Shown: piece by piece, positions 1-37,602 of the stretch | How the letters are laid out: every line of letters starts with the position of its first letter | Numbering within the stretch: the first letter of the stretch is position 1 | NCBI GenBank assembly: GCA_020161505.1 | Contig: JAIUNY010000007.1 | Location: forward strand, 1-64,000 | Source: Armatimonadota bacterium | GTDB lineage: Bacteria > Armatimonadota > Fimbriimonadia > Fimbriimonadales > Fimbriimonadaceae | Direction of reading: 5' to 3' | DNA length: 64,000 nt | Notes under the pieces: generated by a model | What the model was told of the DNA's origin: nothing | What the model saw: only the letters and a program-made list of their open reading frames with translations | Databases searched by the model: none | Position numbers and translations under genes: made by a program

Positions 1-1046
1 AAACGGCTAAGCGCGCGGGAATGAAGTATCTGACCCATACTACGCGACACCATGAAGGCTTTAGTCTCTATGACACGCGCGGATTGAGCCCGTTGGATGT
101 CACGCACACTCCCGCCAAACGAGATTTGATGAAGGAGTTAGTGGATGCTTGTCGCGCAGAGGGGATCCTGCCGATGTTCTACCACACCACCCTCGATTGG
201 AATGAGCCGACGTTCAATGGAGACTGGGATGCCTATCAGACTTACTTGCGTAAGAGCGTGGAGCTTCTATGTACTCACTATGGCAAGATTGGAGGCTTTT
301 GGTTCGATGGAAACTGGAGTAAGAAAGACGCCGATTGGCAAGAGACTCAACTCTACTCAGTGATTCGGAAGCTGCAGCCCGAGGCGATCATCATCAATAA
401 CTCGGGAATTGATGCGATGGGACGAGGTGGGCATCCGGAAGTTGATTCTGTGACCTTTGAGCGCGGTCGTCCATCACCGCTAGATCGTCAGGGGGCAAGC
501 AAGTATGTTGCCGCCGAGATGTGCCATACCATGAACTTTCACTGGGGTGTAGCGAACAAGGATTTCAATTTTCTCTCTCCCGCTCATGTGATCGAAGAGT
601 TCTGCTTTGCGCGCCGAGCCGGGGCGAATCTGCTCATGAACATTGGCCCAGAAACCCACGGTGCTGTGCCCGAGTACGAAGCGGCAGCTCTTGCTCGGGT
701 TGGGGAGTGGATCGAACTTCATGGGGGATCGACTGGCGTGATGTATCGCGGTCGCCCTGTAGGCATAGAAGGTGAGGGAGATGATTTCGCTCTCGCAATG
801 GATGGAGAGCTCTATCTGTTTATCACTGATCTCACGGCGACGAGTAATACCATGGTGCACTCAAGTGGTCACCGGGGAGCAGGTAAGCGTGCGTTCCGAA
901 ACGTGAGTGGCACCTACAAAGAAGTGACATGGATGGACAATGGTCAGAAACTGAACTTCGCCCAAGATGGATCGACCCTCACGCTCGATGCCACGGCCTA
1001 TCCTTACGGCACAAATACCGTGATCCGAGTGGCCAAGGTTCGATAA
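1..1046 (+). CDS. Alpha-L-fucosidase (GH29), 5' end outside window
   Basis: Retaining exo-glycosidase that removes terminal alpha-L-fucose from oligosaccharides. The reading frame is open from base 3, upstream of the first internal ATG at 21. It begins AKRAGMKYLTHTTRHHEGF, the GH29 block that follows the first beta strands, so the true start lies before the window and about 80-100 residues are missing. The catalytic nucleophile region is GGFWFDGNW, where the Asp of WFDG is the expected nucleophile. The C-terminal ~90 residues look like the usual beta-sandwich. No signal peptide can be judged. A bidirectional hairpin separates it from the convergent hydrolase gene. Family assignment is confident; substrate linkage is not deducible. 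Confidence 0.9.
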   Translation, partial: TAKRAGMKYLTHTTRHHEGFSLYDTRGLSPLDVTHTPAKRDLMKELVDACRAEGILPMFYHTTLDWNEPTFNGDWDAYQTYLRKSVELLCTHYGKIGGFWFDGNWSKKDADWQETQLYSVIRKLQPEAIIINNSGIDAMGRGGHPEVDSVTFERGRPSPLDRQGASKYVAAEMCHTMNFHWGVANKDFNFLSPAHVIEEFCFARRAGANLLMNIGPETHGAVPEYEAAALARVGEWIELHGGSTGVMYRGRPVGIEGEGDDFALAMDGELYLFITDLTATSNTMVHSSGHRGAGKRAFRNVSGTYKEVTWMDNGQKLNFAQDGSTLTLDATAYPYGTNTVIRVAKVR

Positions 1047-24858: not shown

Positions 24859-25674
24859 TCATTGGTTTTGGTATTCCTTGAGAAAGGGGATCGGGGCCTT
24901 CATTCCGAGTGCGGAGTGAGGGCGTTCATTGTTGTAGAGGTGAAGGTAGTCGTTCACCGCTCGCTCGACATCGAGAAGATCGGTGTAGATGTCCAGGTCG
25001 CCTTCTTCGGTTTTGAAGCTCTTGAAGAAGGACTCAATGAAGGCATTCTGGGTGGGTTTGCCGGGATCGCTGAAGCTGGAAATCCCATGAAGAGACTTCA
25101 CAAAGGCCAGGAAGTCATGGCTTACATAGCCTGAGCCACGGTCGGAATGATGAATCCAGCCAGGGGCTGGTTCGGCATGGACAAAGGCTTCTTTGAGCGC
25201 ATTTTTCACCAGCAAAGTGTCATTGCGAAGGCTCACCCAAGAGCCCACCACCTCGCGCGAAAAGACATCGAGCACCGCGGCAAAGAAGGCCCGCTTACCA
25301 CCATAGAGACGAACCTCGGTGACATCGCTGGCCCAGATCTGACCAGGCCCGGAAGGAACAATGCTCCGAACCAAGTTGCTTGCTCCGGCCAGATGAAACG
25401 GGATGCGCAGGGGCGAGCGGCGCGGCTTGCCGCCCTTTACGCCGAGGCGATTCATCTCGGTTCGGCAAGCCTTGGGGCTTGCGCCCAGAGCGGCCGCCAC
25501 CCTGCGATATCCATAACTGGGATGCTTCTCGCGCAGCTTCAAAATGGGCTCTTCAAGCGGAAATTCTTGCTCCTTCACCACGCGGTAGACCTGCGAGCGG
25601 CTTACTCCCAAAAGCCGGCTGAGACGCTTCACCGTGAGTTCTTTGAACTCCGGTGCGCGGGATTGAATGGTCAC
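24859..25674 (-). CDS. IS3 transposase OrfB (DDE integrase core)
   Basis: 271 residues, starting at GTG 25674, which overlaps the orfA stop (GTGA). It has an HTH-like N-terminus, then the rve core: IWASDVTEVRL (first catalytic Asp), HHSDRGSGYVSH (second Asp), and the late Glu in KPTQNAFIESFFKSFKTEE, the DDE triad spacing of IS3. C-terminal YNNERPHSALGMKAP. Likely produced mainly as an OrfAB fusion by -1 frameshifting. Confidence 0.93.
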   Translation of the reverse strand: MTIQSRAPEFKELTVKRLSRLLGVSRSQVYRVVKEQEFPLEEPILKLREKHPSYGYRRVAAALGASPKACRTEMNRLGVKGGKPRRSPLRIPFHLAGASNLVRSIVPSGPGQIWASDVTEVRLYGGKRAFFAAVLDVFSREVVGSWVSLRNDTLLVKNALKEAFVHAEPAPGWIHHSDRGSGYVSHDFLAFVKSLHGISSFSDPGKPTQNAFIESFFKSFKTEEGDLDIYTDLLDVERAVNDYLHLYNNERPHSALGMKAPIPFLKEYQNQ

Positions 25675-25976
25675 GATTCGCTCCCGCTTGGTGACTTTTT
25701 TTCATCAAGCACAAAGCGCAAGAACTTAGCCTCCAGCTTTGCCTGACGCAGCTCTTCTTCGAGCTGCTCAATGCGAGCAGAGGCGCTGACGCACTGACTG
25801 CGCCAATCCCTGCCATCAAAGGAGTGCTCGCCTAGGGTTTTGAACTGATCCATCCAGCGATCCATCATGCCATTGGAAATCCCATGCTCGCGGCATGCTT
25901 GGCTCTTCGCGATTTCGCCCTCAGCAATCCGGCGACACAGCTCTAACTTGAATTCGCGGGTGTGATTACGACGCAT
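25671..25976 (-). CDS. IS3 OrfA (helix-turn-helix, transposase_8-like)
   Basis: 101 residues: N-terminal HTH (TREFKLELCRRIAEGE, QACREHGISNGMMDRWM) and a C-terminal leucine-zipper-like helix (ARIEQLEEELRQAKLEAKFL). It binds the IS ends and limits transposition, and its frame continues by -1 shift into OrfB. Confidence 0.9.
   Translation of the reverse strand: MRRNHTREFKLELCRRIAEGEIAKSQACREHGISNGMMDRWMDQFKTLGEHSFDGRDWRSQCVSASARIEQLEEELRQAKLEAKFLRFVLDEKKSPSGSES
25695..25701 (-). promoter_or_regulatory. Programmed -1 frameshift site A-AAA-AAG
   Basis: Within orfA the codons GAA-AAA-AAG form a canonical slippery heptamer. Shifting back one base gives an open frame (KKVTKRERIVTIQ) that runs straight into OrfB, producing the fused transposase typical of IS3 elements. 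A downstream stimulatory structure was not analysed. Confidence 0.75.
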
Positions 25977-26465: not shown

Positions 26466-27968
26466 TCAGAATCCGTCGAGGAGTGAATCCCTGCCTCGCG
26501 CCGACACTTCGTGGAATTCGGTCGCAACCCGCACCGCTTCATCAACCGGCAGATCATCGATCTCCGTACTTTGGAAAGTCGCAGCCGCACTGGAGCAAGT
26601 GACCGTCGCAAGTTTGAACACGCGCTGAGTAGGGGTTTGGGAGATCGTGACCGCCTGAATCTTGTCACCGGGCAGGAAGTTCCACTGCCGCTTGAGCCAC
26701 CCGACCCGAGTCGCCAACACGCCGCTCACTTGAGCCCACCGCGCAGTGCGCCAATAGATATATCCGCTGAATGCTGCGAGCGCCATCAACCCCACGAAGA
26801 CCCCGGCAGCTCCCCACTTGAGCCAATAAACACTAATCAAGGAAATCGCGACAGAAGGCAAAAAGCCGGACCGTAGGTGCCGCCAGAAGGTGCTCTTGCT
26901 GACCTCTCGCCATTCCGGGGCGGAGAGATCGTACTTAGGCAAGGTCAGGCGCATCATGCGATCGCGCTCTGATTCCCGAAGCACTGGAGTGAGCAGGGGT
27001 GCGGTCTGAATCTGAACTTCCTCATTCCGCTTTTCCCCTCCAAATCCCCCGGCGGTTGCAACGTACATCTTCGAGATATTCAGCCATCGCTGGACAAAGT
27101 TCTGGCTCACGTGAACGGTCTGAATCCGTCTGAGAGGTACCGTGTTCTCAAAGTGATTGAAGAGCCCGTAGGCGCGTTTGATTTTGCCGTCCTTCTCCGT
27201 GATTTCGAAGTCGAAATACTTCACGAAAGTCGAGACAATCGAAACGACCCAGCCAATCGCGAAGAAAGCGAGCATCAAACCGCCCCAGAGCATCCAGTTT
27301 TGTTGTTGGGCGGGCACTCGGGCCGCCGTACGGATGGTGTCGCGGTCAATGGCATTGAAGAAAGTCTGCTGAAAGGGCGGAAGCGCAAGCAAACCGAAGA
27401 TCGCGGCGAGGATGGTGAGGGCTCGGTTTTCGCTCGCTCCCACGAGCAGGATCTCCCAGATCGTGGGTTTGTAGACAATCTTCTTGTCTCGGGCTTCCAG
27501 AACCGGCGAATAACTCCTTGGCCGCTCGCCCGTGAGTTGGGCCCGCAGCACATGAGCCTGCTCATCGGTGAGCGCAGAGATGGCCGCTTCCGCCGCTCCG
27601 CCCGCTGCGGTCTCGATCTGAACATCCACCAGCCCGAGCAGGCGGTGAAGGAGCGTCCGCTTGAAGTTGATGTTCTGAATCCGATCCAGCGGAATCGTCC
27701 GAAGGTTCTTCGTGATGATCCCTGACTTGATCAAGAGGTTTCCTTGGTGAATCGCGTAGCCGTAGCTGAAGTACCGGAGCAAGGCGGGAATCACGACGGC
27801 AAGACCGAGGAGAGACAAGTACAGCTCCACTTGAGTCTCGGAGTCGGTGCTCCCTCGCTGGAAAATCTGAACCCCCACAATCAGGATCACGACAAAGAGC
27901 TGCCGCAGAGCGCGAGGCAGCTCGATCACGATCGTCAGAGGGTGGATGCGGTGGAAGACCGGATTCAT
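26466..27968 (-). CDS. Large PH-domain membrane protein (YdbT-like)
   Basis: About 500 residues with three bacterial PH (bPH2/DUF304) units, separated by membrane helix pairs (~15-55, 200-250, 360-400). Each PH unit has the LDRIQNINFKR-type strand (TIPLDRIQNINFK; VPLRRIQTVHVS; KIQAVTISQTPTQRV). ATG 27968 overlaps the stop of the smaller partner by 4 bases. The pair corresponds to YdbT and YdbS, membrane proteins implicated in envelope stress or export of peptide toxins in Bacillus. In this organism the role is unknown. Confidence 0.8.
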   Translation of the reverse strand: MNPVFHRIHPLTIVIELPRALRQLFVVILIVGVQIFQRGSTDSETQVELYLSLLGLAVVIPALLRYFSYGYAIHQGNLLIKSGIITKNLRTIPLDRIQNINFKRTLLHRLLGLVDVQIETAAGGAAEAAISALTDEQAHVLRAQLTGERPRSYSPVLEARDKKIVYKPTIWEILLVGASENRALTILAAIFGLLALPPFQQTFFNAIDRDTIRTAARVPAQQQNWMLWGGLMLAFFAIGWVVSIVSTFVKYFDFEITEKDGKIKRAYGLFNHFENTVPLRRIQTVHVSQNFVQRWLNISKMYVATAGGFGGEKRNEEVQIQTAPLLTPVLRESERDRMMRLTLPKYDLSAPEWREVSKSTFWRHLRSGFLPSVAISLISVYWLKWGAAGVFVGLMALAAFSGYIYWRTARWAQVSGVLATRVGWLKRQWNFLPGDKIQAVTISQTPTQRVFKLATVTCSSAAATFQSTEIDDLPVDEAVRVATEFHEVSARGRDSLLDGF

Positions 27969-28633
27969 CGCGGCTCTTGGGGCGGAGTGTCGTTCGCCGG
28001 GGACGCAGGGGGAATCTCGGCGAGACCCTCCAGCCCGGGGGGTTGCCAAGCGGTTCCCGCGATCGGAGAAGGTGGTAAATCGGGGAGCTGAGGACCAGAG
28101 TCCGAAGGAGCGACCATCGGGGCAATGGGTTCGTCCAGCGCCTGTTTCGGGGTGTCTTTGATCAATGTGGCGCGCAATTGCTCGCCCCGGGCTTCCGTCA
28201 GGCCAGGGATCGAGACCGCCGCCGTCGGCATACCGCCGACAAACAAGCTGACGTTGACGAGTCCAAGCGCTCGGGCGATCGGGCCGGCAGAGATATCAAC
28301 ATGCTGGATCCGATTGCGACTCACAAACCGCCAAGATCTCCAGAAAACTCCTTTCGCGACGGCCAGATCATCCTCGCCCAACCGAAAGCGGTAGAGGTGG
28401 TACGTGCGACCGACAATCCACTGCCCGATGCCCAGGGAGAGCACGAGCAGCCCCCCCGTGATGGCGAGGGGGGGCACCCGCCAGTTGTCGAGTCGTCGCG
28501 TGATGAGGAACTCGGGGACTCCCACCATCAGAGCAATGATGAGCGTCGAGATGAGATTTTCGACTCGCCACAAGGTCTTCACCTGAGGCTCCAACATCTC
28601 CCAAGTCTCGGTTTCGAGGGCGCGTCCTGGCAT
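27965..28633 (-). CDS. Small PH-domain membrane protein (YdbS-like)
   Basis: 222 residues. Two membrane helices (~28-48 and 55-75), then one bPH2 domain (LYRFRLGEDDLAVAKGVFW, RNRIQHVDISAGPIARALG, LFVGG). The C-terminal ~55 residues are Pro/Ala-rich and probably disordered. First gene of the two-gene unit; overlaps the large partner by ATGA. The two probably form one membrane complex, as in the YdbST type. Confidence 0.8.
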   Translation of the reverse strand: MPGRALETETWEMLEPQVKTLWRVENLISTLIIALMVGVPEFLITRRLDNWRVPPLAITGGLLVLSLGIGQWIVGRTYHLYRFRLGEDDLAVAKGVFWRSWRFVSRNRIQHVDISAGPIARALGLVNVSLFVGGMPTAAVSIPGLTEARGEQLRATLIKDTPKQALDEPIAPMVAPSDSGPQLPDLPPSPIAGTAWQPPGLEGLAEIPPASPANDTPPQEPR

Positions 28634-28750: not shown

Positions 28751-29419
28751 ATGTCTAGCCCAATCTTCGAGCCGTTTGGCGAGGATATGTTCCTGAACAC
28801 GGAGCGGAGATGCCCCGTGATTCTCTGCCTTGATACCTCGTCTTCAATGACGCCCCACATCGGGATTGTCAATCAGGGCCTGAGAGCGCTGAAGGCCGAC
28901 TTGCAAACCGACATCCTGGCCAGTCAGAGAGTGGAGATTGCGATCGTCACCTTTGGGCCGGTGCAGCTGGTGCAAGATTTCGTCACGGTGGATCACTGGG
29001 TGCCGCCGACTCTGCACCCACAGGGCAATACCCCGCTCGGCGAAGCGCTGATTCAGTCGATCCAGCAGATCACGATCCGCAAGCGTGCCTACCGCGAGGC
29101 GGGAGTTCCATATTACCGGCCCTGGCTGTGGCTGGTCACCGACGGCGCACCGACCGACAACTGGCAGAAGGGGCTAAATGTCGCCCAGGCCGAGATCCAG
29201 CGGGGCGGCTTGGAGCTCTTCACGATCGGCACGGACGGAGCCGACTTCAGCATTTTGCGAACCATCAGCTCGCCTCGTCAGCCGGTGCGACTGCGTGATG
29301 CCAAGTACCGCGAGATGTTCGTCTGGCTTTCTCAGTCGCTCAAGCCGGTTTCCAAGTCCGATCCCGGATCGAAGCTCCAGCTTCCGGATCCCCGTGAGTG
29401 GGGCGAAATCACGAGCTGA
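28751..29419 (+). CDS. VWA-domain protein, TerY-like
   Basis: A 222-residue von Willebrand A domain with a full metal-ion-dependent adhesion site: LDTSSSM (D-x-S-x-S), Thr in the GNTPLGEAL loop, and Asp in VTDGAPTD. ATG 28751 has GGAGAG just upstream; the 28739 start is less likely. No signal peptide, so it is cytoplasmic. It resembles TerY of the tellurite/stress (Ter) systems. It is followed by a PP2C phosphatase and two kinases at 6-bp and overlapping spacings. This is the TerY-P signalling unit described for bacterial Ter gene neighbourhoods. Confidence 0.9.
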   Translation: MSSPIFEPFGEDMFLNTERRCPVILCLDTSSSMTPHIGIVNQGLRALKADLQTDILASQRVEIAIVTFGPVQLVQDFVTVDHWVPPTLHPQGNTPLGEALIQSIQQITIRKRAYREAGVPYYRPWLWLVTDGAPTDNWQKGLNVAQAEIQRGGLELFTIGTDGADFSILRTISSPRQPVRLRDAKYREMFVWLSQSLKPVSKSDPGSKLQLPDPREWGEITS

Positions 29420-29425
29420 TTCGCT

Positions 29426-30199
29426 ATGGAATGGTTCGTCGCGGCGGCTAAACAAACCGGTCGGGTGCATACCGATCCAGAGCAGGGTCAGGATGCCTAC
29501 GGTTTCCTGAGGCTTGCCCAGGGAGATGTTTTGGTCGCCGCGATCAGCGATGGTGCCGGATCCGCCGAACATGGGGCGGTGGGTTCGGAGCGAGGGGTGG
29601 CGGCCTTTCTGCAAGCAGGCAAGGAGTTCATCGAAGCCGGCCTCAATCCCCTCACCGCAACCGATGAAGAGTGCGCCGATTTGTTCGGAGCCGTGCATCG
29701 GAGCCTGATCGCTCATGCGGGCAAGGCCGAAATCCCTCTCCCCGAGATGAGCGCGACTCTGGTCGCGGCGATCATCACGCCGGAGGGTGGACTGTTTCTC
29801 CAAGTCGGAGATGGCGCGGCGGTGTTTGCCAGCGGCGAAACCCTCGCTCTGCCCCACTTCCCTGCGGATGGCGAATTCGTCAACATCACCCAGTTCATCA
29901 CCAATCCCGAATGGCGTGAGAACCTGATCCTGACCCGGCACCAAGGTGCAATCGAGGATGTATTCCTCTTTTCCGACGGACTGCAATACCTGCTGATCGA
30001 CTTCAAAGATCAAGTTCCTCATGCGCCCTTTTTCGGTCGATTGAGGCAGATGATGCGCGACCCGGCCGCGACCAAAGAGATTCTCGAAGGCTGGATGAAC
30101 CAGATGCTGGCCTCGGATCAAGTGACCAGTCGGAGCGATGATGATACGTGCCTCCTGATGGCGCATCGGAGGGCGAAACCGCGCGATGGAGCAGAGTGA
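29426..30199 (+). CDS. PP2C-type Ser/Thr phosphatase of TerY-P unit
   Basis: 257 residues with PP2C metal-binding motifs: ISDGAGSAEHGAVGSERG, FLQVGDGAAVF, LFSDGLQYL and SDDDTCLLMA. The TerY-P triad includes such a phosphatase, which presumably removes phosphate added by the neighbouring kinases from the VWA protein or a target. Starts 6 bp after the VWA gene and overlaps kinase 1 by 14 bases. Confidence 0.88.
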   Translation: MEWFVAAAKQTGRVHTDPEQGQDAYGFLRLAQGDVLVAAISDGAGSAEHGAVGSERGVAAFLQAGKEFIEAGLNPLTATDEECADLFGAVHRSLIAHAGKAEIPLPEMSATLVAAIITPEGGLFLQVGDGAAVFASGETLALPHFPADGEFVNITQFITNPEWRENLILTRHQGAIEDVFLFSDGLQYLLIDFKDQVPHAPFFGRLRQMMRDPAATKEILEGWMNQMLASDQVTSRSDDDTCLLMAHRRAKPRDGAE

Positions 30200-32195
30200 G
30201 CTCCGGCTCAATCTTGGCCTGAAAGCGAGCTACCGCACCGGTTCTGGCGGCACGATTCACCTGGGCAACAAACTCGGACAGGGCGGCGAGGGCGTGGTGT
30301 ATCGCGTGCTCGAGAACGCGGAGTGGGTCGCAAAGATCTATCACGACAACGACGTTCGGTACGCGAAGGGCAAGAAAGCTGCGTTCTTCACCACCCTCAC
30401 CAACGATCGATTGCTGGAGGCAACATCCTGGCCTTTTGACACCTTGCTCGACGAGCACGGTCGCCCGATCGGCTTTCTCATGCCGCTGCTGAGTGGGACA
30501 AAGTCTCTCTTCGAGGCCTATCACCCTAAGTCACGCAGCCGAGAGTTCCCTCGGGCAGATTTCCGATTCCTTGTTCGCGTGGCGAAGAACTTCGCGACGG
30601 CGGTTTACTACGTTCACGAGGCCGGATGCATCATCGGCGATCTGAACGAGAGCAACACACTCGTGGACGACCGCGCAATGGTCAAGCTGATTGATGCCGA
30701 CAGCTTTCAGGTGATTGCGGAGGGCGATCTCTACCCTTGCCCCGTGGCGAAGACCGAACTTCTTGCCCCAGAACTCCACGGCGAAGACCTCGATCTCGTC
30801 GAGCGAACCATCACTCACGATTGCTTCCCCCTCGCCGTCCTCTTGTTTCACATCCTGGTGCTTGGTCGGCACCCCTACGCAGGGATTCCGATCGATGACC
30901 AAGAGTTCACGTTGGAGACCGCGATTGTCAATCACTGGTACGCCTACTCGGAACGCCGGGACATTCCGCAAAAGCCTCCTCGCGGCATGGACTTGAGCTA
31001 TCTCTCCCCCGAGATTCTCACTCTGTTCGAGCGGGCCTTCGATGGCGATCTCGACGATCGTCCGTCCTCACAAGAATGGCACGAGGCCCTCACGCGCTAT
31101 GAAAATGAACTGATGGTCTGCTCGCAGTCGCCGCAGCACTGGTACTGGCGGGGGGGCGTGGGGTGCCCGTGGTGCGCGATGGAAACCGCCTGGCGCGTTC
31201 GGCTGTTTGGCGCGGAAGTCGCGGCGGCGGTGAAGATCGCTCCTGAACCTGAGCTTGCGAGTTTCACTGAGTACGAGCGACTCATCAAGCGGATGGAGAA
31301 CACCAACGCTCCCATCTTCTACGTACCGGAAAAGCTTCCCACAAAGGAGGATTTCCAACGTGCGGGACGGATCAAATCGGATGGACAAGGCACCTCGCGC
31401 GGCGCGAATTGGGTCGTGTCGGTTTTCCTGATCGTCTGGACTTCCCTCTTTGCCTACGGTTTCGTCAGCCAGTCCGCCGGTCCGGCTGTTGCCTCGTTGA
31501 TGCCTTTCCTCGCGATCGCGATTTGGCTCATCGTCATCGCCCAGCAGGGCATCCTCGGAGGAACCCCTCCAGCTCAGCGATACCGCGAGACTCGAAAGCA
31601 ACTCGAGGATCTGCTGACTCAGCGTCGTGAGTTCATTGATTCGCAAGATTTCGAGGCGACGAAACGACAACTCATTTCGGAAGCAAAGGCCACGCTCGCC
31701 ATGCTTCGGGAACCTCTGCCCATGGAGTACCAGTTCCTCCTCGAGGCGATCCCCAACGAATCGGAGACCTTGCTTCAGAGATACAGCGTCAATGCTTCGC
31801 CGCTCAGCGAGGGCCCGCGGGGGCGGCTTCGTGGGCTCGGCATTCAGGATGCCTGGGATCTGCTGCAGCACGGGATCAAGCGTCCGGAAGGCTTCACGGA
31901 TCGTGACTGGAAAGTCGCGCAAGATTGGCTGATGGAACTGGTGAAGACAATCATCGGTTCACAGTATCAGAGTCATTTTGATGACCACGTTTTGTCCACG
32001 GGCAAGCAAATCCAGTTGCGCGCCCACCAGAAAATTGTGGAAGCAGATCGTCAACTTTCTGATCTCTCGGTTCGCCTGCGCGACTACGACGCGCGAGCGG
32101 AAGCGGAAGACATCACGCTGCGCAAGAAACTTTGGGACGAATATGTTCGAGCCGTCGGGTGGGGGATGTCGCCGGACATCGATCAAGGATCATGA
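30186..32195 (+). CDS. Membrane-anchored Ser/Thr kinase 1 with zinc knuckle and HhH (TerY-P)
   Basis: 669 residues. Kinase domain ~20-300: Gly loop LGQGGEGVVYR (30-40), Lys50 in WVAK, catalytic GDLNESN (Asp152), metal-binding DADSF (Asp170/172), APEL activation-end. Then Cys/His knuckle (CSQSPQHW ... GCPWCAME near residue 325), two membrane helices (~408-453), a coiled segment, and a helix-hairpin-helix-like stretch (GRLRGLGIQDAWDLL, ~545). The GDLN form replaces HRD, as in several TerY-P kinases. It overlaps kinase 2 by ATGA. Cytoplasmic kinase at the membrane; substrates unknown. Confidence 0.88.
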   Translation: MEQSELRLNLGLKASYRTGSGGTIHLGNKLGQGGEGVVYRVLENAEWVAKIYHDNDVRYAKGKKAAFFTTLTNDRLLEATSWPFDTLLDEHGRPIGFLMPLLSGTKSLFEAYHPKSRSREFPRADFRFLVRVAKNFATAVYYVHEAGCIIGDLNESNTLVDDRAMVKLIDADSFQVIAEGDLYPCPVAKTELLAPELHGEDLDLVERTITHDCFPLAVLLFHILVLGRHPYAGIPIDDQEFTLETAIVNHWYAYSERRDIPQKPPRGMDLSYLSPEILTLFERAFDGDLDDRPSSQEWHEALTRYENELMVCSQSPQHWYWRGGVGCPWCAMETAWRVRLFGAEVAAAVKIAPEPELASFTEYERLIKRMENTNAPIFYVPEKLPTKEDFQRAGRIKSDGQGTSRGANWVVSVFLIVWTSLFAYGFVSQSAGPAVASLMPFLAIAIWLIVIAQQGILGGTPPAQRYRETRKQLEDLLTQRREFIDSQDFEATKRQLISEAKATLAMLREPLPMEYQFLLEAIPNESETLLQRYSVNASPLSEGPRGRLRGLGIQDAWDLLQHGIKRPEGFTDRDWKVAQDWLMELVKTIIGSQYQSHFDDHVLSTGKQIQLRAHQKIVEADRQLSDLSVRLRDYDARAEAEDITLRKKLWDEYVRAVGWGMSPDIDQGS

Positions 32196-34234
32196 GTCAG
32201 TTCTATAAGGTAGGGGAATCAGGGGAAAAGAGCCGGATCACGCTAGGGGCCCGAATTGGCGAAGGGGCGGAAGGCGAGATTCGTCACGTCGAAGGCCATG
32301 CGGATACGCTTGCCAAGCTGTACAGAGAAATCGAAAACGCTCCGACGCAGAAGCTGCAAGCGATGCTGCGGAAGGATTCACCGGAGCTCGAGGCCCACAC
32401 AAGCTGGCCCAGCGCGCTCGTCGTCGATGAAAGCAAGCGGATCGTGGGCTTCCTCATGCCCTTTCTGCACAAATGGATTCCAATTTTCCGGGTTTACAAT
32501 CTCCGTCTGCGTCGCCAAAAACTCCCTGAGGCCGACTTCCGGTTCATTGTGGAGGTCGCGACCAACCTTGCGGCTGCCGTCGAGGTGGTTCACCGGAAGG
32601 AAATCGTGATCGGCGACCTGAACGAGAGCAACGTGTTGGTCTCACCCCTGGCTCAGGTTCGTCTCATTGACACGGATAGCTTCCAGTTCACCGACGGCGA
32701 TGTCACCTTCCAGAACTTTCTTGCAAAGACGGAGTACCTCGCTCCGGAGCTCCATGGACGAGATCTACACACCCACGCCCGAACCGCCGATCACGATCGT
32801 TTTGCCCTGGCAATTCTCATCTTCCAGTTGTTGATGCTTGGTCGTCACCCCTTTGCCGGGCGACCGGCCGACGACGAGGACATCAGCCTGGAAAGTGCCA
32901 TCCGCAAGGGTTGGTATGTTTTCGGACGGAAAAACTCCGGCGAGCTTCTGCCGCCAGCGGGGCTCGCCATCGAGAGCTTGAGCCCAAGGCTCTGCGATCT
33001 TTTTGAACGGGCTTTCGCGCTCGATCGCCCAGATGGTCGTCCGACGGCGGGAGAATGGCAATCTGCGCTTGAGGAATTTGCTCAGAGTCTGATTCCCTGT
33101 CCCAGCCAGGCCAAGCACGTTCATGGCGGGCACCTGGAGTCATGCCCGTGGTGCGCATTCCAAGCCCAGATGCGTGTCGCTCCCTTTGGCGTCGGCGATA
33201 CCTCTCCTGCGGCCCCGATTCCTCTGCAAAGAGAGATCGTTCCCGTCGATCCGGCCCGTTTTCAGCGAGCCCTCGTCCTTTCGAGCGCGGAAGTAACCTC
33301 CGCTCTCAATACAACCCGAGGGGAAACCGTGGCGAGCGTCGAGTCGATCACCGCCGAGCACAGGCAGCCACGGAAGTGGCACTCCTTCCCCTTGAGCATC
33401 GGGGCGGTTGTTTTCATCACGATCCTGGCCGGGTTCGGCATTCTGGCAACCCTGGCGGTGAGTTCGTCCGGCCTCAGCATCGCGAGTGCCTTCCCCGCAG
33501 TCATCCCGGGCCTTCTCCTCTTTTGGACCATCGGCGGCATGGTGAAGCTTCAGCGGCTGAAGTCACTTTACTGGTGGCATGATGATCGACTGCTGGCCCT
33601 CGTCACGCCCCTGCAGCAGCATCCCCTTCAACAGAGAGCGCACTCCCTGGGGCGAGACATCATCTTGCTGGAACGTCTGCGTCAGCACAAATTGATGATC
33701 GAAATCGCCGCCCTGGAACGGGTGATGTCCCGCGCTGGGCATGAGAGCCCGAATGCCTTCCTCCGCAAGTACCTTCTCGCATCGGCGCAATCGGAGTCGC
33801 GCGATCAGATCCCATTCAAGCGACTTCGAACGAAGGGAGTCAACACTGCCGAAGACCTCTCGTTCGAGAAATACGGCGAACTTGACTTCATCTCCCCTTC
33901 CGTGCTCGACGGGATGCTAACCTGGAAACTCTCGCTTCTCCACGCGTTTTACGGCGAAGAACGCGGAATGCTCTCCGAGGCCGTCCGGGCCGCGATCTCC
34001 GAGGAAGTGAAGATTCTGGATTCAGAGATCTCACACAAGATCGCCGACATGGGCGACAGTCTGAATCAGTTCGTCGAAACGTTCTCGCAGGAGTACGCGA
34101 TGATCGCGGATGATATTCTAACTGTGCGCGACTCTCGGCATGCGGCCCTGCTCGCCTATGTCGAGTACGCCCTGAGTCATGGGGCCAAGCTCTCGGAGAA
34201 TCCCAATCGAAAAGAAACTCCTCAGACCACTTGA
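32192..34234 (+). CDS. Membrane-anchored Ser/Thr kinase 2, paralogue of kinase 1 (TerY-P)
   Basis: 680 residues from ATG 32192. The same order of parts as kinase 1: Gly loop IGEGAEGEI (22-30), Lys42 in LAKLY, GDLNESN, LIDTDSF, then LAPELHG. CPWC knuckle near residue 316 (SCPWCAFQ), two membrane helices (~400-450), and a helix-hairpin-helix-like stretch (KRLRTKGVNTAEDLSFEK, ~540). All catalytic residues are kept, so both kinases should be active. Duplicated kinases under one VWA/PP2C pair suggest two inputs or a kinase cascade. The stop overlaps the convergent GH4-like gene by 13 bases. Confidence 0.88.
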   Translation: MSQFYKVGESGEKSRITLGARIGEGAEGEIRHVEGHADTLAKLYREIENAPTQKLQAMLRKDSPELEAHTSWPSALVVDESKRIVGFLMPFLHKWIPIFRVYNLRLRRQKLPEADFRFIVEVATNLAAAVEVVHRKEIVIGDLNESNVLVSPLAQVRLIDTDSFQFTDGDVTFQNFLAKTEYLAPELHGRDLHTHARTADHDRFALAILIFQLLMLGRHPFAGRPADDEDISLESAIRKGWYVFGRKNSGELLPPAGLAIESLSPRLCDLFERAFALDRPDGRPTAGEWQSALEEFAQSLIPCPSQAKHVHGGHLESCPWCAFQAQMRVAPFGVGDTSPAAPIPLQREIVPVDPARFQRALVLSSAEVTSALNTTRGETVASVESITAEHRQPRKWHSFPLSIGAVVFITILAGFGILATLAVSSSGLSIASAFPAVIPGLLLFWTIGGMVKLQRLKSLYWWHDDRLLALVTPLQQHPLQQRAHSLGRDIILLERLRQHKLMIEIAALERVMSRAGHESPNAFLRKYLLASAQSESRDQIPFKRLRTKGVNTAEDLSFEKYGELDFISPSVLDGMLTWKLSLLHAFYGEERGMLSEAVRAAISEEVKILDSEISHKIADMGDSLNQFVETFSQEYAMIADDILTVRDSRHAALLAYVEYALSHGAKLSENPNRKETPQTT

Positions 34235-34914
34235 TCCAGCCACGCTCGGAGAGGGGTTTCTTTGCCGGAACTCATCAGTTCGAACAGTTCCTCGTCCCGC
34301 CGTACCCACCGAAGAATCTGGTGGGGGATCAGGCTTTCCTGGACGTCGGTAAGCGGCTCAGGCCATCTCAGAGATTCCCCGGCTGCGAACGGCGTCTCAC
34401 GCATCAGGCTCACGACTCGAGCGGAGTCGGGGATCTGCGGGACGAGGATCTGGAGAGCATCTGCCATGGCCTCAACCCGGCTGAATTGCTCGTGGTTCGG
34501 CACGCTGAGAAGCTGCTTGGTGTGCTCGCTCAGCGATTCCGGCGGCGTGGGCCTGTTCCGATCGCCCCCGTAGAAATGGATAGGGATCTCCTGGTCTTCA
34601 AACATGGCCAGGCTCGGCGAGAGATGGGTTCCGATGAGTCGCCGAGCGCAGTCCTCGTGGAGACACAGAATCGCGTCCGTCGTTCCCGGAGCAGCCTCCT
34701 CCAGACTCGTCGTCGAGCTCACCGTTGCTTCCGAGTTCCAATCGTCCATCAGGCATCGAGCCAGACGGTCCATCAGGTCGAGCCGTTCTTCGTTGGCATC
34801 CCACAGTCGAATCGCAAGCGGGACATCCGGGTACCAGTTACAGAGGGTGGCAAACACGGGCGGCGCGCACCTTACATTTCCCGCTCCCAACACCGTCACA
34901 ACACGCCCTGCCAT
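34222..34914 (-). CDS. Rossmann-fold protein resembling GH4/malate-dehydrogenase-like N-terminus
   Basis: About 230 residues from ATG 34914. N-terminal strand-turn VVTVLGAGNVRCAPP is like the GAGS(V) NAD-binding start of GH4 glycosidases. IRLWDANEERLDLMDRLA fits the acidic residue after the second strand. It is much shorter than GH4 (~440), and the catalytic half is missing. Either a divergent member or a decayed one. The 3' end lies over the kinase 2 stop on the other strand. Confidence 0.45.
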   Translation of the reverse strand: MAGRVVTVLGAGNVRCAPPVFATLCNWYPDVPLAIRLWDANEERLDLMDRLARCLMDDWNSEATVSSTTSLEEAAPGTTDAILCLHEDCARRLIGTHLSPSLAMFEDQEIPIHFYGGDRNRPTPPESLSEHTKQLLSVPNHEQFSRVEAMADALQILVPQIPDSARVVSLMRETPFAAGESLRWPEPLTDVQESLIPHQILRWVRRDEELFELMSSGKETPLRAWLDQVV

Positions 34915-34992
34915 CGCTCGGAAAGTGTACCGATGAACCCATCTGCTGCGCATAAGGAATTGCCACCCGGAACTAGGTAACCTGCATGCTTC

Positions 34993-37602
34993 ATGGATCC
35001 GTTTGAAGATGCCAAACCGGAGTTCTCAGGCACTCTCATCACGATGGAGTTCGGTCAGGCGGGCCGGATCAGTCAGTTATGGGCAAGCGATCCAACCTTG
35101 CCCGAGGAGGGCGAGGACTTCCAGTTCATCCTCCCCCCGATCCAATTTGGCGAGGAAGATGCCAGCGACTACACCCCCGGAACCATCCTGATTGGGGTGC
35201 GATCATCCCCGGACGAGCCGTGGATTGTCAGTCGAAACCAGGGCGCGAGGATGCTCAAGGAGGACGAGGAAGGCGAAAGCGACGAAGCCGAAGTCGATCT
35301 CGAACTCCTGTTTAGCCAGAGCAAAGTTGGTTTCGAATACTTCTTTCCCTTCCTCGATGGACTGCAAGTCACGGGGCGCTTCCACGAGATTCCTGGTGCC
35401 CTGCCCCAAGTGGCGTGGGATATCGAGATCAAGAACACAGGACGGCGGACGATCGAAATCGGCGAACTGGGCTTTCCGCTTGCCTTCAACAACTTCTACG
35501 ACGGATTTGGGTGGTCGGACGAACAACTCAAAAAGCTCTGGCAAAGCCGCCTTTACGTACACAAATCCATCGGAGGGGGATCGAGCTACGTCTTCGCGCA
35601 GCGAATGAGCGCAGAAAGCCCAGGGCTCCTCGTCTTCCCTGGGCCGGGCACAGGGTGGGAGTTTAGCGCTCATGTTTCGGGGACTCTACACACTCCGCAT
35701 CAATGGGAGGGGATTCCGGTGGTTTATGTCCACAGCAAGGCCACGATTGAGCGAGAGGAGTGGCCGACCTGGTTCAACGAGCACACCTCCTTGATCCTGG
35801 AACCTGGCGATTCCCGCACATTCTCGATGCGGTTTGTCCCCTGCGAGAGCGACAAGCACGACGGGGTCGCGGTCACCCTTGGTCTCTGCGGACGACCCAC
35901 AATCAAGCTGATCCCGAGCGCGGTGGCTCCAATTGATGTGGGGATCGCCGTGGAGGTGAACGGCGTCACGCCGAAAAGGTTCTTCGTGAGTCGGGAGACC
36001 ATGACCGAGGTGGATACCGACGAAAACGGCGGATTCTGCTTTGTCAAACCCACTGAGCCAGGATCACTGATTGTCAGTTTTCAAGACGGAGACGGGGTGA
36101 TGTGTCACTCCCACCTGATGTTCACCGAGCCGTTGCAGACTCTTATCACCAAACGGGCAGACTGGATGACCAAGCATCAAGTGGTGAACAAACCCGGATC
36201 GGCGATGGACAAAGCCATCGCCCAAACCAATATCGCAACGGAAGAGCAACTGCTCAGTGACGATGAATACCTGGAGAGTTCGGGGCTGGAATGTTCGTTA
36301 GCGGATGCTCTCTTTCTCGCCGAAAAGAATAATCTCTATCCCGATCCAGCGCAAATCAAGGTACTTGATGACTATGTGGAGGTCTTCCTCCGAGGCTATG
36401 TCCACAATCCAAGCAATGGGGCGGTAGCAAGCATCCTCGTTGGAGGGATTCCGATGTACTTCGGTCGGCCGATGAGTTATCCGATTGTCGCCAATCTCTA
36501 TCACGCCCTCTCTCGGGTGGCTCGGGTCTCGGCGGGTCTTTCCCATCCGCCAAAGGACTATCTGCTTGCCGCTGCGCGGACGTATGAAGCCATGTTCACC
36601 CACGGCTGGCGGATGTATGTCCGTACGGTGGGAGTCCTTGGGTTTTCCCAGGCGTACGACCTTCTTTCTGATCTTGAGTCTGAGGGACTCCTTGAAGAGG
36701 CCACTTCGCTGCGCTCCAAACTCACAAATAAAGCCCAGAGTCTTCTCGCTCTTGACTATCCCTTTGCCGGCGAAACCGTAATGGACACGAGCGGATTCGA
36801 AGAGGTCTTCTCGGCAGCAAAGTTTCTGGATAATGATGAGCACATGGAGCGAACTATCCGCTGTGCTTTTGCCGTGCGATCCTTGGCCCCGAGTTGGTGG
36901 TGGTACGGAAGTGATAAGCGCCACTTCGACAGCGACGAAAGCAATCCCCTTAAGGCACTCGTCGATCGTGGCGAGGCCTGCTTGGCCCATACAACGATTC
37001 CGAATAGCCTCATTTTCTTCGGGGTGATGGATCGCGACTATCTCGCCCTTCCGGAGGCTTATCTGCGGATGGCCTGCGGCGGGATGCTCGGCCCTTGGGC
37101 CCTCATCCGCGAAGACGGCGCCGCCAGCATGTGTTACTGCCCCGACCTGGCGAGTAAACAATCAGGCTATAACCCTTACACCGGATCCAGCGGATTGGGA
37201 TACTTCCACTATCTGCGGGGCGTCTCGGCATGCGTCTTTCCCAACCGAGAGTTTGGGCTGTTCTCGTTTGGTTGCCAGTATTTCCTAGATGAAGACACCC
37301 ATGTCGTCCGGCCTTGGGATGGTGTGGGACGTCGCGTGCTCATGCGTCAGATCGGAGTCACCGCCGAGGCGCGGTTCGGGCAGATCAAGGAGTTGCGTCT
37401 CGCCGCCAACCTCCGTTCATGCCGAATCATCCTGGCCAACCCGAGCGATCAGATCATTGAAACATCGCTTCGACTCACTGGGCTGTGGGGTCTGAGTCTG
37501 GTAGTCGGGGGCCGAACCATCCCTGCCGCCAACGGTGGATTCGAGGTGCCGGTGACGCTTTTGGGCCGCTCCGAGGTCGTGATCGAGGCCGAAGCGCGCT
37601 GA
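34993..37602 (+). CDS. Large glycosidase-like protein (DUF5695-like), unknown
   Basis: 869 residues with no obvious signal peptide. The N-terminal ~300 residues are beta-rich (SRNQGARMLKEDEEG, FFPFLDGLQVTGRFH), the middle ~100 a beta-sandwich, and the C-terminal ~450 an all-alpha barrel type with Trp/Asp/Tyr-rich blocks (APSWWWYGSDKRHFDSDESN, LALPEAYLRMACGGMLGPWA). The overall shape resembles DUF5695, a secreted or periplasmic carbohydrate-active family. Catalytic residues not assigned. No adjacent sugar genes on this strand. Real gene on length and codon pattern; function weakly inferred. Confidence 0.6.
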   Translation: MDPFEDAKPEFSGTLITMEFGQAGRISQLWASDPTLPEEGEDFQFILPPIQFGEEDASDYTPGTILIGVRSSPDEPWIVSRNQGARMLKEDEEGESDEAEVDLELLFSQSKVGFEYFFPFLDGLQVTGRFHEIPGALPQVAWDIEIKNTGRRTIEIGELGFPLAFNNFYDGFGWSDEQLKKLWQSRLYVHKSIGGGSSYVFAQRMSAESPGLLVFPGPGTGWEFSAHVSGTLHTPHQWEGIPVVYVHSKATIEREEWPTWFNEHTSLILEPGDSRTFSMRFVPCESDKHDGVAVTLGLCGRPTIKLIPSAVAPIDVGIAVEVNGVTPKRFFVSRETMTEVDTDENGGFCFVKPTEPGSLIVSFQDGDGVMCHSHLMFTEPLQTLITKRADWMTKHQVVNKPGSAMDKAIAQTNIATEEQLLSDDEYLESSGLECSLADALFLAEKNNLYPDPAQIKVLDDYVEVFLRGYVHNPSNGAVASILVGGIPMYFGRPMSYPIVANLYHALSRVARVSAGLSHPPKDYLLAAARTYEAMFTHGWRMYVRTVGVLGFSQAYDLLSDLESEGLLEEATSLRSKLTNKAQSLLALDYPFAGETVMDTSGFEEVFSAAKFLDNDEHMERTIRCAFAVRSLAPSWWWYGSDKRHFDSDESNPLKALVDRGEACLAHTTIPNSLIFFGVMDRDYLALPEAYLRMACGGMLGPWALIREDGAASMCYCPDLASKQSGYNPYTGSSGLGYFHYLRGVSACVFPNREFGLFSFGCQYFLDEDTHVVRPWDGVGRRVLMRQIGVTAEARFGQIKELRLAANLRSCRIILANPSDQIIETSLRLTGLWGLSLVVGGRTIPAANGGFEVPVTLLGRSEVVIEAEAR

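Follow-up and report, generated by a model that had tools for sequence, protein, structure and literature searches.

How should an operon of VWA protein, phosphatase and kinase genes be understood when it encodes two membrane kinases instead of one? Such a locus was present in a window of 64,000 nucleotides (the whole stretch of DNA analyzed) from a member of the Armatimonadota, and the first-pass annotation had proposed that its single phosphatase may serve two coupled kinases. We analyzed the four genes, their distribution and phylogeny, and the explanations that could account for the second kinase.

Gene organization and predicted products

The four genes of the operon, coding for a VWA protein, a PP2C-family phosphatase and two kinases designated K1 and K2, were found as complete open frames (Table 1). 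VWA and PP2C were separated by a 6-bp gap, PP2C and K1 overlapped by 14 bases, and K1 and K2 by 4 bases (ATGA). The frames, the gap and both overlaps agreed with the first-pass annotation, and its view of the locus as a single compact unit held, the genes being co-directional and tightly packed. The linkage of K1 and K2, found once, may be regarded on sequence grounds as a real variant. The G+C content and GC3 of all four genes were the same as those of their neighbours, and a recent foreign origin of the operon was ruled out by composition. A simple scan revealed no sigma-70 promoter-like site for the operon, and Rfam and tRNA scans of the window gave no matches.

Table 1. Features of the operon, its surroundings and kinase K1; positions are in nucleotides of the window for genes and in residues for parts of K1
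Feature	Position	Strand	Basis or remarks
IS3-like transposase gene pair	24859-25976	-	rve (integrase core) matches in the longer frame
bPH_2 gene pair	26466..28633	-	Pfam; two overlapping frames
VWA protein, TerY/YegL-like	28751..29419	+	222 aa; Pfam VWA 1.6e-07; MIDAS intact
PP2C_2-family Ser/Thr phosphatase, PphC-like	29426..30199	+	257 aa; Pfam PP2C_2 1.5e-35; metal residues intact
K1, YegI-like membrane Ser/Thr kinase	30186..32195	+	669 aa; Pfam Pkinase 4.7e-11
K2, second YegI-like membrane kinase	32192..34234	+	680 aa; Pfam Pkinase 4.6e-12; domain order of K1
Flanking gene	34222..34953	-	matches no Pfam family; found in each of the 8 genus genomes
Large DUF5695 protein	34993-37602	+	869 aa; just beyond the 34222-34953 gene
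K1, kinase domain	about residues 13-307		Pfam Pkinase, alignment
K1, C-H-C-C zinc-type site	C312, H318, C327, C330		alignment
K1, two TM helices	404-430, 433-456		hydropathy, AlphaFold2 model
K1, coiled coil with HhH-like insert	542-590		AlphaFold2 model, alignment to E. coli YegI

The metal sites of the VWA protein and the phosphatase, previously annotated as intact, proved to be among the conserved features of their families. The MIDAS residues of VWA (D28xS30xS32, T94 and D131) were kept in 90–91 of 91 alignment rows, and the metal-binding aspartates of PP2C (D23, D42, D129, D184, D239 and D240) in 89–91 of 92. VWA was 72% identical to its counterpart in G221, a genome of the same bacterial family, and both proteins fell into the same clades as the VWA and PP2C proteins of single-kinase triads of this family.

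Both kinases retained the glycine loop, the ATP-binding lysine and the catalytic aspartate, while a D-x-D motif replaced DFG. With open frames, these catalytic residues and the identity given below for their kinase regions, they fit the earlier description of two complete but diverged membrane kinases. The CPWC knuckle noted previously turned out to be part of a C-H-C-C set that was invariant in 40 sequences of the kinase family and is predicted to bind zinc. Two membrane helices were predicted in each protein from hydropathy and AlphaFold2 models (mean pLDDT 85 and 84 for K1 and K2). Both models followed the same order: a kinase fold, a small beta hairpin with a helix where the C-H-C-C site lies, then a pair of hydrophobic helices and a coiled-coil helical hairpin. 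The predicted hairpin, overlooked before, brackets an HhH-like element. Pfam called no HhH domain in K1 or K2 and gave a weak HHH_5 match for E. coli YegI; the element is backed by alignment to YegI and by the models. The common order of kinase, CPWC, two helices and HhH put forward in the first-pass annotation is consistent with alignment, hydropathy and models. No OB-fold was present in either model, the part following the kinase being nearly all helical, and Foldseek and PDB sequence searches with K1 and K2 returned generic protein kinase folds only.

The triad and its genomic setting

Homologous loci were sought by scanning a single genome for each species, and the best 80 of the 344 loci were examined. 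VWA, PP2C and kinase genes followed each other in that order in 77 of these 80, the three exceptions being loci cut by contig ends; the 80 loci came from 11 phyla, and nine of them were archaeal. Such conservation of order indicates that the triad is a widespread unit in bacteria and some archaea and that its assignment to the TerY-P kind, made in the first-pass annotation, is right; homologous loci do not have unrelated neighbours. According to PMC11090510, which refers to Anantharaman et al. 2012, TerY-P combines a TerY-like VWA protein with a PP2C-like phosphatase and with a kinase bearing a zinc ribbon at its C-terminus. The operon matches this description, its Ser/Thr kinases carrying a predicted zinc-binding site after the kinase domain, but it differs from the triads described there in having two kinases, with membrane helices and HhH following the zinc-type site, and in lacking restriction or CoCoNuT genes directly beside it.

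The closest model is the yegL-pphC-yegI locus of E. coli K-12 (L069), where VWA, PP2C and membrane kinase genes occur in the same order. YegI aligned with K1 and K2 across the whole domain order, including the C-H-C-C site and the HhH region, and its kinase region shared 37% identity with that of K1. E. coli possesses a single kinase, and in K-12 a yegJ gene separates pphC from yegI, whereas here there is no insert and the second kinase follows K1. The connection to Ter-type signalling suggested previously proved weak: no TerD gene was detectable in the genome, which rules out an association of the operon with TerD, and the E. coli locus is a closer model than a tellurite operon. No other ter or restriction genes were found beside the operon; such linkage is frequent in TerY-P but not required.

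Triads with the same gene order, belonging to the same kinase, VWA and PP2C clades, were identified in nine genomes of the bacterial family (G198, G117, G061, G105, G161, G173, G230, G213 and G221). Each had a single kinase with no linked second one, in contrast to the pair described here. The kinase family was absent from all seven other members of the genus. In six of them the bPH_2 pair adjoined the orthologue of the 34222-34953 gene with no more than about 100 bases between them, while in the seventh the two lay on different contigs. Since the site is empty in six genus members, the operon is accessory, either gained here or lost repeatedly elsewhere. The IS3-like pair, which precedes the operon by about 2.8 kb on its upstream side, is a possible, unproven agent of rearrangement.

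Distribution and origin of the second kinase

The kinase type was present in 14 of 85 genomes of the bacterial family, with a side-by-side pair in this genome only. Among 291 genomes of the phylum, the others with two full copies carried them on different contigs. No linked pair was detected in 369 genomes from the class of Bordetella, in 30 genomes drawn from the scanned loci (one genome being common to both sets) or in 47 plasmid records (one place each). For the phylum and the Bordetella class, scoring covered the three or four best candidate places of each genome, and all linked-pair counts represent detection at the thresholds used. A second complete kinase was likewise missing from all of the best 80 of the 344 scanned loci, in 71 of which the sequence extended for 1.2 kb or more past the kinase. 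The twin-kinase layout emphasized in the first-pass annotation is not conserved, no other linked pair having been found in the phylum, in about 400 further genomes or on the plasmids. As the pair is unique among all genomes checked, the idea of coupled twin kinases rests on one genome. The triad being widely conserved and the second kinase not, the locus is a known system in a lineage-specific form, with the second kinase as its only unusual part.

Two complete TerY-P triads (L057 and L058) were found on different contigs of G213; one of their kinases belonged to the clade of the bacterial family, and the other grouped with E. coli and other phyla.

Identity between K1 and K2 was 42% for the kinase region and about 13% for the C-terminal part; the low C-terminal value had been missed in the first-pass annotation. 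Against single kinases of other genera in the bacterial family, the corresponding values for the two were 37–50% and 11–18%. Since K1 and K2 are no closer to each other than to kinases of other genera, their split is either old or was followed by fast evolution. Both fell inside the kinase clade of the bacterial family (support 100/98), and phylogeny suggests that K2 represents an additional, lineage-specific copy belonging to this clade. The whole-length tree joined them weakly, on long branches (91/78). The kinase-region tree placed them apart, with a longer branch for K2 (1.09) than for K1 (0.79), and a constraint joining them was not rejected (AU p 0.276). By identity or path, the nearest kinases were those of G230/G061 for K2 and of G236/G198 for K1.

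Duplication in place and capture from another triad both appear compatible with these trees. It is possible, although rather doubtful, that K1 and K2 derive from two separate triads within the bacterial family and were united through recombination instead of being duplicated in place. Their different nearest kinases, a mutual identity not exceeding that to single kinases of other genera, and the occurrence of two unlinked triads in the relative G213 are in line with recombination; on the other hand, a sister relation was not rejected and the whole-length tree joins the pair, if weakly. A recombination origin would be compatible with function as a phosphorylation switch.

The extra copy could also be a non-adaptive duplicate or a captured kinase beside a normal triad, redundant or heading to loss and with no two-input logic. 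We consider this unlikely, even though the linked pair occurs only once and K2 has the longer branch in the kinase-region tree. The K2 frame is uninterrupted for 680 aa, and all catalytic and C-H-C-C residues that are invariant in the family are preserved in it; their retention despite the low identity to K1 points to long-term selection on K2.

Proposed function of the operon

We propose that the operon probably encodes a reversible phosphorylation switch at the membrane, of the TerY-P or YegL-PphC-YegI type. PMC13232886 reports that YegI, a membrane kinase, undergoes autophosphorylation on serine and that the phosphatase PphC dephosphorylates YegI. By analogy, K1 and K2 would each autophosphorylate, and the single PP2C would remove the phosphate from the kinases and reset the system. 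VWA would act as a metal-dependent adaptor or as a substrate that may be phosphorylated by the kinases. Control of both kinases by one phosphatase is plausible on the same analogy. The differing C-terminus of K2 could bring a second input to the shared phosphatase and VWA. The different C-terminal halves fit two inputs, but this is weak evidence, since the C-termini of the family evolve rapidly, whichever two genera are compared. In a stricter and improbable arrangement, K1 and K2 would be bound together in an obligate hetero-oligomer, or would act as a two-input gate of two sensors that differ in their membrane and C-terminal parts, with one PP2C for reset and one VWA reader.

Triads resembling TerY-P have been reported as anti-phage systems (PMC7699616, PMC11090510, PMC10889362), and the accessory nature of the operon, with its empty site in congeners, would suit a defence cassette like the stand-alone TerY-P systems. 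Such a role nevertheless seems very unlikely. In stand-alone TerY-P systems tested against phage the kinase is fused to a C-terminal OB-fold, and in CoCoNuT-linked ones it carries a C-terminal zinc ribbon (PMC11090510), whereas K1 and K2 have membrane helices and HhH like YegI, and no OB-fold in their models. The immediate neighbours, the bPH_2 proteins and the protein with no Pfam match, are not defence genes. PADLOC, whose models may not cover this type, detected nothing in VWA and gave general kinase-level matches only, E. coli YegI being treated no differently.

As a probable phosphorylation switch, the operon is a natural variant in which two intact, strongly diverged kinases accompany one phosphatase. 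It could help to separate the conserved interface of kinase, VWA and PP2C from the fast-evolving sensor part, although a single case of the pair carries limited weight.

Relatives of the kinase were also encountered in other settings. On a Hyphomicrobiales metagenome contig (L148:5367-6548), the kinase was split by a stop into two adjacent in-frame segments near the contig end. Seven contigs of the IMG/VR viral collection (L183-L189) encoded kinase relatives and could be either virus or host DNA.
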